Assembly (NCBI RefSeq): GCF_013036045.1
Contig: NZ_WTPX01000033.1
Coordinates: 1 to 38,456 of the forward strand
Direction: 5' to 3'
Length of the DNA stretch: 38,456 bases
Source: Alienimonas chondri
GTDB lineage: Bacteria > Planctomycetota > Planctomycetia > Planctomycetales > Planctomycetaceae
Shown here piece by piece: positions 5,754-11,412 of the stretch. Position numbers and translations under genes: made by a program. The notes beneath the pieces were generated by a model. The model saw only the letters and a list, made by a program, of their open reading frames with translations. It was not told where the DNA came from and did no database searches. The number at the start of each line of letters is the position of its first letter. The stretch's first letter is position 1.

Positions 5754-7856
5754 ATGACCGAAACCGCCCGCACCGCCGTCTTCGCCGCCGTCGCGGCCGC
5801 CGCCGTCGTGCTCGCCGCCGTGCTCTCGTGGCCCGGGGCGACCGCGGAGACCGCCGGCTTCGAGCAGGTCGGCACCCCCTTCTTCACCGCGTTCGAATCG
5901 AACGCCGGCACTGACGATGAGACCGGTGACGAGCCCTCGGCGGGGAACCTCTCCAAGATCGGCCGATTCACGATCACCGCGTTTGATGCGGACACCGGCG
6001 CCATCCAGGACTTCCGCATCACGCGGGACGAGTCGACGGGCCTGTACGGCATCGCCCCCTACGACTACCCCGCCGAAGCCGCCGAAAAACTGGCTGAGGT
6101 CGCCGCGGCGCTCGGGTCGGTCAAACGGACGGCTTTGCAGAGCCGGCGCCAATCGGACTGGGCGGACCTCGGCGTGGTCGATCCGGCCAGCGAGGACGTC
6201 GGCCAACTGGAGGGTCGCGGCCTACGGGTCGAACTGACCGGCGACGACGGCAACCCGCTGGCGGACCTCATCATCGGCAAGCCGGTCGAGGATCGCGACG
6301 GCTACTTTTACGTCCGCGAACCCCGCGACGACAGCACCTACATCGCCAAGTTGGACGACCTCGATCTCTCCGCCCGCTTCCGGGATTGGGTCGATCCCGA
6401 AGCCCTGGAAGTCGCCGCGTCGGACCTCCGCAAGATCGTCGTTCCGGACGAAACAATCGATCCGCGGGCTGGCGAACTGCTGGTCGGCGACCCGCTGGCG
6501 CTCTCCCGGGAAGACGCCGCCGGCGAGTGGACCGCGGAGAGCCTGCCGGAAGGTCGCGCCGTCGATCAGGCGAAGGCGAACGCGTTGGCCAGCACCGCCA
6601 CCGGTCTGACGATCGCCGGCGTGCGTCCCAAACCGAAGGGGCTGAAGCCGGACCTGACGCTCGACCCCGCGGTCGTGCAGACGGAACGCCAATACAGCGC
6701 GATCGTCCGCGACATCACCGGCAAGGGTTTCTCGATCCTGCCCACCCCGGACGGCGGCGGGCAGGTGATCGGCGAAGCCGGACAGCTGACCGTCGTCACC
6801 GACGAAGGCGTCGCCTACGATCTCGACTTCGGCGAGCTGTTCACCGGCAACAACTACGACTTCGCCGTCGGCGAGGCCGGCGAGGGCTACAAGACGCTCT
6901 CCGCGGAGAAGAAGGACGACGACGCTTCCGGCGAGGACGCCGACGAAGACGCGGAGCAGTCCCAGGGCCGCTACCTGTTCGTTATCGCCCGCCTGGACGC
7001 CGCCGCCCTCGGCGAGCCGCCCGTCGAACCGCAGCCCCCCACCGAGGACGAATCGGCCGCTGAGAAGAGCCCCGAGGACGCTGAGTCTGAGGACGCTGGG
7101 TCCGAGGGAGCGGACGACGCGGAGGACGCCGACTCGCCCCAGAAGCAGTACGAGCGCGAACTCGCCGCCTATCCCGCCGCGAAGCGGGCGTACGACGAGA
7201 AGCTCGCCGCCGCGAAGGAGCGGGTGGAGGAACTGAACCGCCGGTTCGGCGACTGGTACTACGTGGTCGACGCGGATGATGTGGTCGAGTTGTCCCTGAC
7301 CCCCGCCGCGCTGCTTCAGGACGCCGCCCCCGCCCTGCCGGACGCCGGAGCCGGAAACTCGCCCAGCCCCGGGATGCCGGCGCCGATCGAAACGCCCGGC
7401 AGCTTGGAAGACCTCCTCAAAGGGCTCTCCCCCGGCATGCCGACGGCCCCGCCCGCCGACGGCGCGCCTGAGGAAGCGCCCCCAGCGCAAGACGCCCCCG
7501 AGGAAGACGCCCCGGCGGAGCAAGAGCAAGAAGGGACCGCCGTCCCGACGGAGCCGGCGATGAGCGATCGCTCGCCCGAGTCGCCCGAACCGACGCCTTC
7601 GCCTGAAAACCCGGCCCCCTCCGAGTCGATGGATACCGGCGACGCGGCTGCCGACGAAGCCAGCGGTGAGGCCCGACCGCCGGTCTCCGCCCCGCGACCG
7701 ACCCCGCCCGCCGAGACCGACACGCCCGCCGAGTCGAAGGATCCCGAAGACTCAACCGATGAGGAGAGCGAACCGGGCTCGAACGACGGTGCGGACAGCG
7801 ACGAAGAAACGGGCGCTGATGACGCGGGTTCGGCGGACGGACCGGGCGCCGCGTGA
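5754..7856 (+). CDS. DUF4340 domain-containing membrane-anchored protein
   Basis: This 700-residue protein is the third member of the GldA-GldFG-DUF4340 operon. It starts with a single N-terminal helix (about 7-26, TAVFAAVAAAAVVLAAVLSW), then a DUF4340-type beta-rich region: IGRFTITAFD, then LADLIIGKPV and DGYFYVREP, which fit the repeated substructures of this family. Acidic insertions follow (around 385-405 and 420-460, Asp/Glu/Ala/Ser-rich), then a helical stretch ending RRFGDWYYVVDADDV. The last ~180 residues are a Pro/Glu/Ser/Ala-rich, probably disordered tail. The protein is expected to sit outside the cytoplasmic membrane beside the permease. Its precise role is unknown in the family. 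The tail is much longer than the family core requires. Confidence 0.88.
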   Translation: MTETARTAVFAAVAAAAVVLAAVLSWPGATAETAGFEQVGTPFFTAFESNAGTDDETGDEPSAGNLSKIGRFTITAFDADTGAIQDFRITRDESTGLYGIAPYDYPAEAAEKLAEVAAALGSVKRTALQSRRQSDWADLGVVDPASEDVGQLEGRGLRVELTGDDGNPLADLIIGKPVEDRDGYFYVREPRDDSTYIAKLDDLDLSARFRDWVDPEALEVAASDLRKIVVPDETIDPRAGELLVGDPLALSREDAAGEWTAESLPEGRAVDQAKANALASTATGLTIAGVRPKPKGLKPDLTLDPAVVQTERQYSAIVRDITGKGFSILPTPDGGGQVIGEAGQLTVVTDEGVAYDLDFGELFTGNNYDFAVGEAGEGYKTLSAEKKDDDASGEDADEDAEQSQGRYLFVIARLDAAALGEPPVEPQPPTEDESAAEKSPEDAESEDAGSEGADDAEDADSPQKQYERELAAYPAAKRAYDEKLAAAKERVEELNRRFGDWYYVVDADDVVELSLTPAALLQDAAPALPDAGAGNSPSPGMPAPIETPGSLEDLLKGLSPGMPTAPPADGAPEEAPPAQDAPEEDAPAEQEQEGTAVPTEPAMSDRSPESPEPTPSPENPAPSESMDTGDAAADEASGEARPPVSAPRPTPPAETDTPAESKDPEDSTDEESEPGSNDGADSDEETGADDAGSADGPGAA

Positions 7857-7970
7857 GAAATGAGGGTCGGCGGTCGGCGCCGGGGAGAACGGGACGGGTC
7901 GCATCGCGGCTCGGCGGTCGAAGCGTTTCCAGACGCTCGCCCCTGTCTCCCCGAGCCCCGGAGTTCCGCC

Positions 7971-8504
7971 ATGATCCCCTTCGCCCCCGCCGCCCTCCTT
8001 CTCGTCACGTTCGCGCCCCCGGCCGCAGCCGACGCCACTCCCGAAGCCGTCGGCGTGGTGAGGGTCCGAGCGGCCCCCGTCTCCATCACCCGAACGGTGA
8101 AACCGGTCGAACCGGTTTGGCAGCCGGACCTCGCCGCGGCGTTCGCGCTGTCCGCCAAGACGGACAAGCCGGTGCTGGTATTGGTCGGGGCGGAGTGGTG
8201 CCATTACTGCCACAAGCAGGACGACGAAACGCTGACCGATCCCGCGGTGAAGAAGGCGCTCGCCGAGGGCTTCATTCCCGTGCGATTGGACGCCGACGAC
8301 GACGAACGGGTGGTCGAGATTCTGCAGGTCGGCATGCTGCCCCAAGTGGTGATCCTCTCGCCCAAAGCCGATCTGCTGGGGCGTGCCAAAGGCTATCACA
8401 CGCCCGCGAAGTTCCGGTCGGCGCTGTTGGCCGCGACGGCGAAGCACGCCGCCGCCAACGCCGCCCGCCTCGCCGCCGCCCCCGAGACGTCGACGACGCT
8501 CTAA
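7971..8504 (+). CDS. Secreted thioredoxin-like protein (CxxC)
   Basis: A 177-residue protein. The start at 7971 is chosen because a signal peptide follows at once (MIPFAPAALLLVTFAPPAAA, cleavage near residue 20); a frame open further upstream has no such property. The thioredoxin-like domain has the redox motif W76-C77-H78-Y79-C80 and a LPQ turn with the cis-proline candidate P124. The spacing and the word AEWCHYCHK match the Thioredoxin_7/DUF255-like group, which handles periplasmic disulfide exchange. It follows the DUF4340 gene by 114 bp on the same strand and may be co-transcribed. The partner or substrate is not evident. Confidence 0.88.
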   Translation: MIPFAPAALLLVTFAPPAAADATPEAVGVVRVRAAPVSITRTVKPVEPVWQPDLAAAFALSAKTDKPVLVLVGAEWCHYCHKQDDETLTDPAVKKALAEGFIPVRLDADDDERVVEILQVGMLPQVVILSPKADLLGRAKGYHTPAKFRSALLAATAKHAAANAARLAAAPETSTTL

Positions 8505-8584
8505 CCGTCGCTCGGCGCGAACGGCGATCGTACGAAACCCCTCCGGAGGTTGAAGATCGGGCGGTTCGGCGGTAGCGTCCGCGG

Positions 8585-10138
8585 ATGCCTGCGCCCGCCA
8601 CCGGACCCGACTCTGACGACAGCTGGGAAGATCTCGCCGGGGATCTCTTCGGGATTGATCTGACCAAATCCGCCGCCGCGGAGGAGGACGACGACGACTT
8701 TCTCGATCTCCCCGCGCCGAAGTCGAAGAAGGGCGGCGGCGAAGTGACCGCGGAGAAGGAGGTCGCCGCCCCCACCGCCGCCCGCGTGAACCACGCCGGC
8801 GACGCCCCCGCCGAGGACGAGGTCGAAGCCCTCGACGCGGCGGACGACGATTCCGACGACGACGCGGACGACTTCGACGACGATCCGCTGGCGGACCTCG
8901 GCGACGGGTTCTTCGACGACGACGAAGAGGACGTCGACCCGGCCCCCAAGCGGTCGCGCAAGCCCGAACCCAAAGCGGAAGAGCCGAAGCCGAAGCGCTC
9001 CCGCTCCCGGGCGGCTTCCAAAGACAAGGACGACGACGCGGAGGAGAAGCCCTCCCGCCGCCGTCGCTCCGCCAAACCGGCGCCGGCGAAGGTGGAGTCG
9101 AAGGTCGACGAGGACGACGACACGTCGGACTTCTTCGGTTTCGGCGATGAGGACGAGGACGAAGACGACGCCCCGGTCGCCGAAGAGGCGGAGATCGACG
9201 AAGACGAGGACGACGACGCGTCGGACGACGACGAGATCGACGCCGCGGGTTCCGACGAGTTCTGGGAAGCGTTGGACGACTGGGACTGGGACGGCGGCGG
9301 CTCTTCCGATGAGAAATCGAAGCCCTCCCGGTCCGGTTCCCGCAGCGAATCGACGTCGACTTCCAGCCGGTCCTCCCGGCGCGGTCCGGCCCGCGACGAG
9401 TCCGAGAAGCCGAAGCGGCCCCGCCGTGGACGCCCCGCCGCGGTGGAGGACGACGAGAAGCCCAAAGCTCCCGCCCGTCGCAGCCGGACCGAAGCGTCCG
9501 ACGACGAGGAGTCCGATCGTCCCCGTCGTCGCCGCGGCCGTGGCCGCGGCCGGTCGAAAGACGCCGAGCCGGCTCGCTCCGAGAAGGCTGAGGAGAAGGA
9601 CGAGTTCGCCGCCGCCTTGGACGATGCCGAGGACGATGGTTTCTCCGCGGGCTTGGCCGACGAGTCGGACGACGATTCGAACGATCGCCCGACGCGCGCC
9701 TCGGAGTCTGACGACGACGAACGCCCCCGTCGGCGTCGTCGCCGCGGACGCGGCGGCCGCTCCCGGAATCGCGAAGAGACTCGCTCCGAGAGCGACGAGA
9801 CGTCGGAGGACGAACCGGAAGACGACGCCCCCGCGGGCTTCGACGAGGATGCGTCGGACGACGACGACTTCGGCGATCTCGGGTTCGGCGACGACGAGGC
9901 GGACAGCGACGAAGACGAACGCCCGGCCCGCTCGCGTGGCGGCCGTTCGCGTCGCGGCTCCCGGTCGTCCGGTTCGCGTTCCTCCCGCGACGAACGCCGT
10001 GACGGCGGCGAAGCGGTCGACTACGGCGACGTGCCGACCTGGTCCGACTGCATCGCCTCCCTGAGCTTTGGCGGCGGCAACCCCGACAGCGGCGGCCGAG
10101 GCGGTCGCAGCCGCGGCGGCCGCAGCCGGCGGTCCTAG
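8585..10138 (+). CDS. Disordered bipolar protein with Asp/Glu and Arg/Ser/Gly tracts
   Basis: I do not recognise a family for this 517-residue protein. It alternates blocks of Asp/Glu with blocks of Arg/Ser/Lys, including RRRRGRGRGR-like and SRSSRRG words, and ends in RGG/RS repeats (GGRSRGGRSRRS). Almost no hydrophobic core is visible. Short hydrophobic or aromatic motifs stand out: SWEDLAGDLFGID (13-25), SDFFGFGDEDED (near 180), DEFWEALDDWDWDG (near 225), DDFGDLGFGDDE (near 420) and YGDVPTWSDCIASL (480-493). Such RGG/RS tracts are typical of nucleic-acid-binding disordered regions, so an RNA- or DNA-binding scaffold is a reasonable guess. Other frames are also open here because of base composition, but this frame gives the ordered motifs and an ATG after a clean gap. 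The gene ends 23 bp from a convergent gene. Confidence 0.8.
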   Translation: MPAPATGPDSDDSWEDLAGDLFGIDLTKSAAAEEDDDDFLDLPAPKSKKGGGEVTAEKEVAAPTAARVNHAGDAPAEDEVEALDAADDDSDDDADDFDDDPLADLGDGFFDDDEEDVDPAPKRSRKPEPKAEEPKPKRSRSRAASKDKDDDAEEKPSRRRRSAKPAPAKVESKVDEDDDTSDFFGFGDEDEDEDDAPVAEEAEIDEDEDDDASDDDEIDAAGSDEFWEALDDWDWDGGGSSDEKSKPSRSGSRSESTSTSSRSSRRGPARDESEKPKRPRRGRPAAVEDDEKPKAPARRSRTEASDDEESDRPRRRRGRGRGRSKDAEPARSEKAEEKDEFAAALDDAEDDGFSAGLADESDDDSNDRPTRASESDDDERPRRRRRRGRGGRSRNREETRSESDETSEDEPEDDAPAGFDEDASDDDDFGDLGFGDDEADSDEDERPARSRGGRSRRGSRSSGSRSSRDERRDGGEAVDYGDVPTWSDCIASLSFGGGNPDSGGRGGRSRGGRSRRS

Positions 10139-10161
10139 GCTCCATCTCCGAACGCGGCGGG

Positions 10162-11412
10162 TTACTCGCCGTCTGTCGTTTTGTTAGCGGGCGGATCGAA
10201 CCAGATCCGTCGGCCCCAGTCGTCGCGGAATGACGTCGCAAGCGCGGTGCGGCCGGCCGCGAAGAACCTGTCCGGAAGCGTCACGTCGCGGGCTACGTTC
10301 GCGGCGCAGAGGCGCAGGCCGTCGCGATGTTCCGTGAACAGGGCGAATGCCAAGGTTCCGGGGATCTCCGTATCACGGCCTCTGTCGAAACTGGCTACGA
10401 GATAGCCGTCCGAACATGGGACGGCGTCGGCAACCGCCTTGTCCTCATAGAACGGCCATTCGAGTTTCTCTTGGTGGACGACCACGCCGCGCGGGAGATC
10501 CATTCGCGAGATCCCGTCCGACCGTAAAAACGCGACGGTCCGGTCCGCCGCGTTCACCCGGCAGGATAGCGTGCCCAAGCTGCCCGGGAACGCGGCGTGC
10601 GCGACGACTCGACCGGTGTCCGCCTCGAACGTCAGCACGTGGGTCAGGGAGCTGTACGGCCCGAACTTAGAATTGTCGGTCACCGTCACGCACGCCACGA
10701 CGATCAGGCCGTCCCCGATGTCCGCCGCATCGCAGAGCGCGCCGAAGTTCTCGCTGTGCTTGATCGCTCCGGGCAGCACGTCGACCGCCAGCGCTCTCAC
10801 GGGGCCAGGTTCGTTTCCGAAGACTGAAATGTGCTCCGGAAACCCCTTCCCGCCGGCGGCGACGACAATCTCCGACTTCCAAGGTTCGCCTTGCCGCTTC
10901 GGGTCCAAGGTCCGCTCAAGGACGAACCGTGTCGATCTGCGGACTGGGCGGAGCAACCGAAGACCCGCGTGGAACTCTCCTTCTGGCGCCGGGGCGGAGC
11001 CATCCCCCGTCAACCATTTGTCGGGCAGCGGCAAGATCGTCACGCCCGGGGCGTCGCCGCCTTCGCTTGAATCGATCGCCAAACGCTTTCCGTCGCCGCT
11101 GATCGCGAACCGCCCGGGATCAGCCACGCCGTGCCGTAAGCGACCGACGATCTTGCCGTCCGCTCGTACGTCTCGGATCAGGAATCGATCGGTCTGTTCG
11201 GTCCGGTCGCTGAACACGTCGTGCTGTTCGACCCATTCGTGTTCGATCAGCAATGGAACCCCGCCGGCTCCCTCGATCAAGACCGTCGACTGGGGGTCGT
11301 GGAGAACTTCCGGCAACGGGGCGATCTTCAGATCGCGGTCGCGACAGGGCGTTTCCGCCCCATCTGCGGGCGGTCCGGACGACAGCAGGGTGAGCAGTAG
11401 CGGGGTGAGCAT
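10162..11412 (-). CDS. Secreted hypothetical protein, possibly beta-propeller-like
   Basis: A 416-residue protein beginning with a short signal peptide (MLTPLLLTLLSSGPPADGAE). The rest is a series of beta-strand-like segments with words such as GRFAISGDGKRLAID, LTHVLTFEADTGRVVAHAAF and DRTVAFLRSDGISRMDL, resembling the repeating strands of WD40/PQQ-type propellers, though no clear repeat unit could be fixed. It lies 31 bp downstream of mtnA on the same strand and is probably the last gene of that operon. Base composition is slightly less GC-rich than its neighbours. No enzymatic motif was found; the propeller assignment is a guess from texture. Confidence 0.75.
   Translation of the reverse strand: MLTPLLLTLLSSGPPADGAETPCRDRDLKIAPLPEVLHDPQSTVLIEGAGGVPLLIEHEWVEQHDVFSDRTEQTDRFLIRDVRADGKIVGRLRHGVADPGRFAISGDGKRLAIDSSEGGDAPGVTILPLPDKWLTGDGSAPAPEGEFHAGLRLLRPVRRSTRFVLERTLDPKRQGEPWKSEIVVAAGGKGFPEHISVFGNEPGPVRALAVDVLPGAIKHSENFGALCDAADIGDGLIVVACVTVTDNSKFGPYSSLTHVLTFEADTGRVVAHAAFPGSLGTLSCRVNAADRTVAFLRSDGISRMDLPRGVVVHQEKLEWPFYEDKAVADAVPCSDGYLVASFDRGRDTEIPGTLAFALFTEHRDGLRLCAANVARDVTLPDRFFAAGRTALATSFRDDWGRRIWFDPPANKTTDGE

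Follow-up and report, generated by a model that had tools for sequence, protein, structure and literature searches.

The gene at 8585-10138 and the encoded protein

The window, meaning the whole stretch of 38,456 nucleotides of Alienimonas chondri DNA that was analyzed, carries at 8585-10138 a gene for a disordered charge-block protein of 517 aa, which belongs to the family studied here. This gene and the features described with it are on the forward strand. The genes for a GldFG-like ABC protein, a DUF4340 protein (5754-7856; Pfam PF14238, with synteny in part of the family) and a thioredoxin-like protein (7860-8504; Pfam PF13899, with synteny) precede it in this order, the last of them immediately upstream. 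The DUF4340 protein, which is encoded beside the ABC protein, has a long C-terminal tail of its own that is acidic and proline-rich.

The charge layout of the protein was compared with that of shuffled sequences. Asp and Glu account for 31.5% of the residues, and Lys and Arg account for 17%. The variance of net charge in 15-residue windows was 0.100, versus a shuffle mean of 0.030 and a maximum of 0.053 in 2000 shuffles. Thus, the Asp/Glu and Arg-rich blocks described in the earlier note are present, and their segregation lies beyond all 2000 shuffles. Runs of four or more Arg residues were found at residues 158, 314, and 382-387. Two Arg-rich blocks stand out, RRRRGRGRGRSKD at residues 314-326 (9524-9562) and ERPRRRRRRGRGGRSRN at residues 379-395 (9719-9769), of which R383-R387 are nearly invariant in 33 sequences. 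The protein further contains 19 RS dipeptides and four RGG, two of the latter being located in the RGG/RS-rich C-terminal tail (residues 503-517; 10091-10135).

Three short aromatic motifs are set in this chain: an N-terminal helical motif, SWEDLAGDLFGID, at residues 13-25 (8621-8659), which is kept in homologues; a middle aromatic motif, DEFWEALDDWDWDG, at residues 224-237 (9254-9295); and a C-terminal helical motif, YGDVPTWSDCIASL, at residues 480-493 (10022-10063), which was used as the search signature. They had been described as repeated within the protein. This did not hold, as each is present as a single copy starting at residues 13, 224, and 480, so the recurrence is between homologues and not inside the protein. 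AlphaFold2 prediction with a 33-sequence alignment gave a mean pLDDT of 46 and a pTM of 0.20, in line with the disorder suspected before. Helices were predicted solely at residues 14-22, 26-31, 225-231, and 486-494, which correspond to the three motif sites, and the mean pLDDT reached 85 for residues 481-490. W227, L230, P484, and W486 are invariant in the 33 aligned sequences. In addition, a motif of the FGxG(L/I) type is represented by one good copy, FSAGL in AEDDGFSAGLADE (residues 353-357; 9641-9655), and two degenerate ones. No Pfam or NCBIfam family matched the protein at E<=0.1, no sequence relative was found in the PDB at E<=0.01, and no second protein with the C-terminal motif was found in the same genome (41.7 bits versus 14 for the runner-up).

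Codon usage, which the earlier note had named as a check on the reading frame, was analyzed with the ortholog from the same genus. Across 497 aligned codons, 195 differences fell on position 3, compared to 100 on position 1 and 79 on position 2. GC content by codon position was 0.75/0.54/0.84, similar to that of three neighboring genes. Synonymous and non-synonymous codon changes numbered 8 and 0 in the N-terminal motif region (residues 11-31), 4 and 1 in the middle motif, and 4 and 2 in the C-terminal motif, versus 97 and 136 outside the three motifs. The position-3 bias and the purifying selection at the motifs therefore indicate that this frame is very likely translated and that the motifs matter. 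The sequence at 8585-10138 is a real, conserved gene.

Distribution of the family

In the following, families within the class are labeled f1 to f14, and f1 is the home family of this genome. A search with the full-length protein matched six of 59 genomes, its own among them, and a six-member profile matched 64 of 150 home-family genomes. With the C-terminal signature alone, 115 of 124 home-family genomes were matched at E<=0.05, a count that includes G063 (E 0.046) by score alone and at least one chance match (G019). When 118 genomes of the class were searched at E<=0.01, 56 were signature-positive, comprising 30 of 30 in f1 and 26 from f5, f7, and f9-f14. This count was made partly by score, the two weakest, G197 (E 0.007) and G232 (E 8e-4), being among the score-only rows. 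Signature matches in G202, G048, and G177 (E 0.02-0.09) were set aside as likely chance by score or frame length. Outside the class, a sample of 392 genomes of the phylum gave five matches at E<=0.01. Three of these (G572, G722, and G680), together with the f1 match in G019, are chance matches in presumed sulfatase and formate-dehydrogenase-like proteins, as named from a reading of the sequences alone; the other two of the five are G583 and G699.

ORFs were extracted at 38 of 40 home-family loci, with L058 and L087 having no extractable ORF. The incomplete L075 (216 aa) was excluded from the reference list, and the 33-sequence alignment left out L055, L072, L074, L078, and L082 as well as L075. 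All 38 f1 ORFs matched a fixed pattern for the C-terminal motif, and 35 matched one for the N-terminal motif, showing that homologues do conserve the aromatic motifs. Homologues from other families were obtained through the C-terminal signature at 20 loci, to which 12 more were added. A motif of the W-x-x-L-A-x-x-L-G type near the N-terminus was present in at least two copies in 28 of these 32 and in at least one copy in 31, versus at most two sequences with even one copy in 200 shuffles. The other-family homologues share the plan of acidic and Arg-rich stretches with an IPTWxEAI-type C-terminal motif, and most of those read have an RG-rich tail. In several homologues, the RG/RGG tail is longer than that of the window protein. 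Some homologues contain tandem repeats in the disordered part (DPRDIDPRD... and PERGER...; L128 and L132, L203 and L204). None of the ORFs read joins a family member to an enzyme. The motif conservation and the predicted disorder support the earlier view of a disordered protein that has conserved motifs of the docking type and is built like a scaffold.

RNase E inserts and the FGxG(L/I) motif

The charge-block design resembles that of the RNase E scaffold, and we therefore checked whether RNase E has a scaffold of its own here. RNase E and the signature were surveyed in one sample, the 118 genomes of the class. In 55 of the 56 signature-positive genomes, RNase E was detected, each time through a single profile match beginning at position 1 or 2. 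Among the signature-negative genomes, it was found in 60 of 62, and in 56 of these 60 (two of the 56 being contig fragments) the match starts past position 62; of the remaining four, three belong to f8 and one to f6. All 17 sequences that were read of the 56 late-starting ones have a long insert splitting the S1 domain. Over the 20 signature-negative RNase E loci read, a disordered insert within the S1 domain was observed at 19. The insert spans 31-71 aa in the 26 signature-positive genomes measured; in the 20 signature-negative genomes measured, it spans 161-944 aa and is disordered and charged. RNase E at L172-L190 (f2, f3, f4, and f8) carries a disordered insert of 215-944 aa that lies inside the S1 domain and not at the C-terminus. 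In the genome of the window, RNase E is encoded at a separate locus (G000:C301) and has an S1 insert of 40 aa.

When a tree was built from the RNase E core (39 rows), a single branch with weak support (76/38) separated the signature-positive rows from the others. The complementarity of insert and stand-alone protein may therefore be a single event, i.e., one evolutionary switch. The exception in f6 (G041; L191/L156) has no signature and an S1 insert of 25 aa. Its RNase E extends 284 residues after the profile match, versus 84-150 in the other 19 loci, and this region is rich in S, R, T, and E. The long C-terminal side of the f6 enzyme is perhaps a third solution.

The motifs of the inserts were then compared with those of the family, after removal of the duplicate RNase E loci L143 and L144 from the counts. 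The FGxG(L/I)-type motif was found in 35 of 39 f1 members with 51 copies (shuffle mean 0.8, maximum 4, 500 shuffles) and in 16 of 20 long RNase E inserts with 35 copies (shuffle mean 0.5, maximum 4). The other four inserts are without it even in a loose form. When preceded by at least two acidic residues, the motif has a density of 2.5 per 1000 aa across 38 f1 members and of 2.8 across the 20 inserts, as against 0.05 in 333 neighbor ORFs, not all of which are proven genes. In non-f1 members, the acid-preceded form was found in three of 32, with nine loose matches in 15,690 aa. The terminal motifs of the family are not enriched in the inserts, where one W-motif and one PTW-type match were found in 20. 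Of the putative docking motifs, FGxG(L/I) is shared with the RNase E inserts by f1 members and is rare in members from other families. Arg blocks of six or more residues were present in 37 of 39 f1 members versus six of 20 long inserts.

A motif-model scan of ten whole genomes returned 24 rows at E<=0.3. Ten of these are family members or RNase E, and the 14 others, where about three were expected by E-value, comprise four Rho, three SpoVG, one Ski2-like helicase, one NYN-domain protein, two ArsR-type regulators, and three chance-looking rows. The best match was a family member or RNase E in nine of the ten genomes; their own ranks are partly circular because their family or RNase E sequences were part of the model. 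In the tenth genome, G001, the best match was an ArsR-type regulator, and the family member scored only E 1.0. Below the E<=0.3 cut, one more Rho and one more Ski2-like helicase, recognized from their sequences, carry the motif. The Rho of the genome under study (L256, G000:C46:25906) is one of the four within the cut. Across the ten genomes, five Rho proteins (L256, L255, L259, L270, and L277) have a disordered-looking N-terminal region with FGxG(L/I). In the two ArsR-type regulators of this genus (L250 and L265), the FG motif is within an N-terminal extension, and the NYN-domain protein (L263, G047) has a long proline-rich tail with a terminal FGAGL.

SpoVG was present in 116 of 118 genomes, and 50 of the 116 were read, comprising the 30 best-scoring and 20 chosen across families with their tails unseen; 49 of the 50 were new to the motif search, that of G062 having already been seen. 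In 44 of the 50, the C-terminus is a motif of the FGxG(L/I/V) type (shuffle mean 0.017, maximum 2, 2000 shuffles). The six without a terminal motif are from f3 (one), f4 (two), f6 (one), and f7 (two). SpoVG of the genome under study (L317; SpoVG loci in L287-L336) terminates in GAFGDGL. SpoVG of Listeria is reported to bind RNA (PMC4959528).

We tentatively suggest, at odds somewhat short of even, that RNase E, Rho, SpoVG, a Ski2-like helicase, a NYN nuclease, and the scaffold share a docking motif, (D/E)xFGxG(L/I), sometimes placed at the C-terminus; that a common hub reads this motif and thereby gathers an RNA-decay assembly; and that in one lineage the scaffold was freed to become the window protein. 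This motif network is the bolder part of the proposal, and it is independent of whether the window protein touches RNase E. No description of a planctomycete RNA-decay assembly of this kind was found in the literature searched, whose coverage left out most subscription journals.

Proposed role and alternative explanations

We propose, with a probability of roughly 55%, that the protein is a disordered RNA-processing or RNA-decay scaffold of the degradosome type that acts in trans and replaces the RNase E S1 insert of related families. The sharing of motifs with RNase E inserts, Rho, and SpoVG points indirectly to a role in RNA metabolism. According to this proposal, the Arg-rich blocks and the RGG tail would bind RNA, and the acidic blocks together with them would favor weak self-association. 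Docking of partner proteins, presumably the RNA-decay and termination machinery with RNase E among them, would fall to the conserved helical motifs at the two ends and to the conserved FGxG(L/I)-type motif, and an effect on RNA decay would follow. The large disordered S1 insert of RNase E in related planctomycete families would do the same job in fused form, while here RNase E retains a short insert and the scaffold would be supplied by a separate gene. The distribution thus suggests two scaffold arrangements in the class, a giant S1 insert in some families and a short RNase E with a stand-alone scaffold in others. If so, scaffold and enzyme can be uncoupled in evolution, and the shared FGxG(L/I) motif offers a direct way to search for the members and the hub of a planctomycete RNA-decay assembly.

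Among the closest known counterparts is the scaffolding C-terminal half of proteobacterial RNase E. The charge-blocked tail of Caulobacter RNase E, which forms BR-bodies, suffices for phase separation (PMC10412687). In Pseudomonas, the RNase E tail bears PNPase-binding motifs that vary widely between species (PMC11964227), and in Rhodobacter capsulatus, RNase E is part of a complex that also contains two helicases and Rho (PMC3071783). The last report also tabulates planctomycete RNase E at 509-588 aa, too short for degradosome scaffolding (PMC3071783). Like these tails (PMC10412687 and PMC11964227), the window protein has a predicted-disordered chain with alternating acidic and Arg-rich blocks, the latter of the RNA-binding type, and short conserved docking-type motifs in an otherwise variable chain. 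Unlike them, it is not fused and has other motifs; it is encoded outside the RNase E polypeptide by a separate gene and thus falls outside the RNase E family. It would nonetheless work like a degradosome scaffold.

Also in contrast to the proteobacterial C-terminal tail, the matching region of the sister lineages is an insert inside the S1 domain. The inserts in f2, f3, f4, and f8 resemble the family in being acidic and Arg-rich and in an FGxG(L/I) density about that of f1 members. They differ from it in being fused and in having no enrichment of the PTWxxAI C-terminal and SWxxLAxxLFG N-terminal motifs. The disordered N-terminal region of Rho is another low-complexity segment on an RNA-metabolism protein, with FGxG(L/I) in five of ten genomes as in the window protein, but it is attached to a folded enzyme whereas the window protein stands alone. 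Planctomycetota Rho has been noted to contain disordered regions (PMC10284900).

The eukaryotic SR/RGG proteins share RS dipeptides and an RGG-type tail with the window protein. SR proteins are defined by an RS domain together with an RRM domain, which they require. The window protein has neither an RRM nor another folded domain in the Pfam and NCBIfam searches, with zero matches at E<=0.1, and differs further in its strong acidic blocks, so it does not belong with SR proteins.

Alternatively, the protein may be a condensate protein associated with RNA or ribosomes that has no particular tie to RNase E; its acidic and Arg blocks and its docking motifs would then serve another RNP, for example, a transcription-linked complex with Rho and SpoVG. 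The FG motif is indeed common to Rho and SpoVG, RNase E inserts show no enrichment of the terminal motifs, and non-f1 members rarely carry the FG motif. We consider this explanation unlikely, as it turns both the insert complementarity and the FG motif in the RNase E inserts into coincidence. A polyelectrolyte that organizes the chromosome or nucleoid, with motifs binding DNA-associated partners, would agree with the high charge, the Arg blocks, and the FG motif of the two ArsR-type regulators, and ScpB is encoded a few genes away in five of 39 f1 maps. It is never adjacent in those five maps, however, and most motif-sharing families act on RNA, which makes a nucleoid role improbable.

The gene neighborhood was analyzed in 39 f1 maps and 20 other-family loci. 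In f1, the thioredoxin cluster was found in 12 maps and the ABC and DUF4340 clusters in 11-13; they are missing from the remaining maps, some of which are short contigs. The tRNA methylthiotransferase MtaB is encoded downstream in 15 of 39, in some cases with one intervening gene. The 20 other-family loci had no match to the MtaB, DUF4340, GldFG, or thioredoxin clusters, and an ABC ATPase matching the ABC cluster was found at five of them, beside different genes. Since only this ATPase recurs, and in different company, we rejected the neighbors as a guide to function, and the ABC-DUF4340-thioredoxin arrangement was taken as local synteny. The f1 maps and the 20 other-family loci likewise contain no pointer to RNA decay. 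The partial sharing of these clusters in f1 would suit an accessory of the upstream ABC transporter/DUF4340/thioredoxin operon. Their absence from the other f1 maps and, except for the ABC ATPase, from the other families, together with a predicted fold confined to the short motif helices, leaves that role very improbable compared to the scaffold proposed here.

The view that 8585-10138 is low-complexity sequence without conserved function or an untranslated frame could draw on the high GC, a long antisense ORF, and the fast-evolving linkers, but it is hardly tenable given motifs that are kept across families and are under purifying selection. The antisense ORF, of 829 aa at 7752-10241 on the reverse strand, spans the gene and is read as a high-GC shadow frame.
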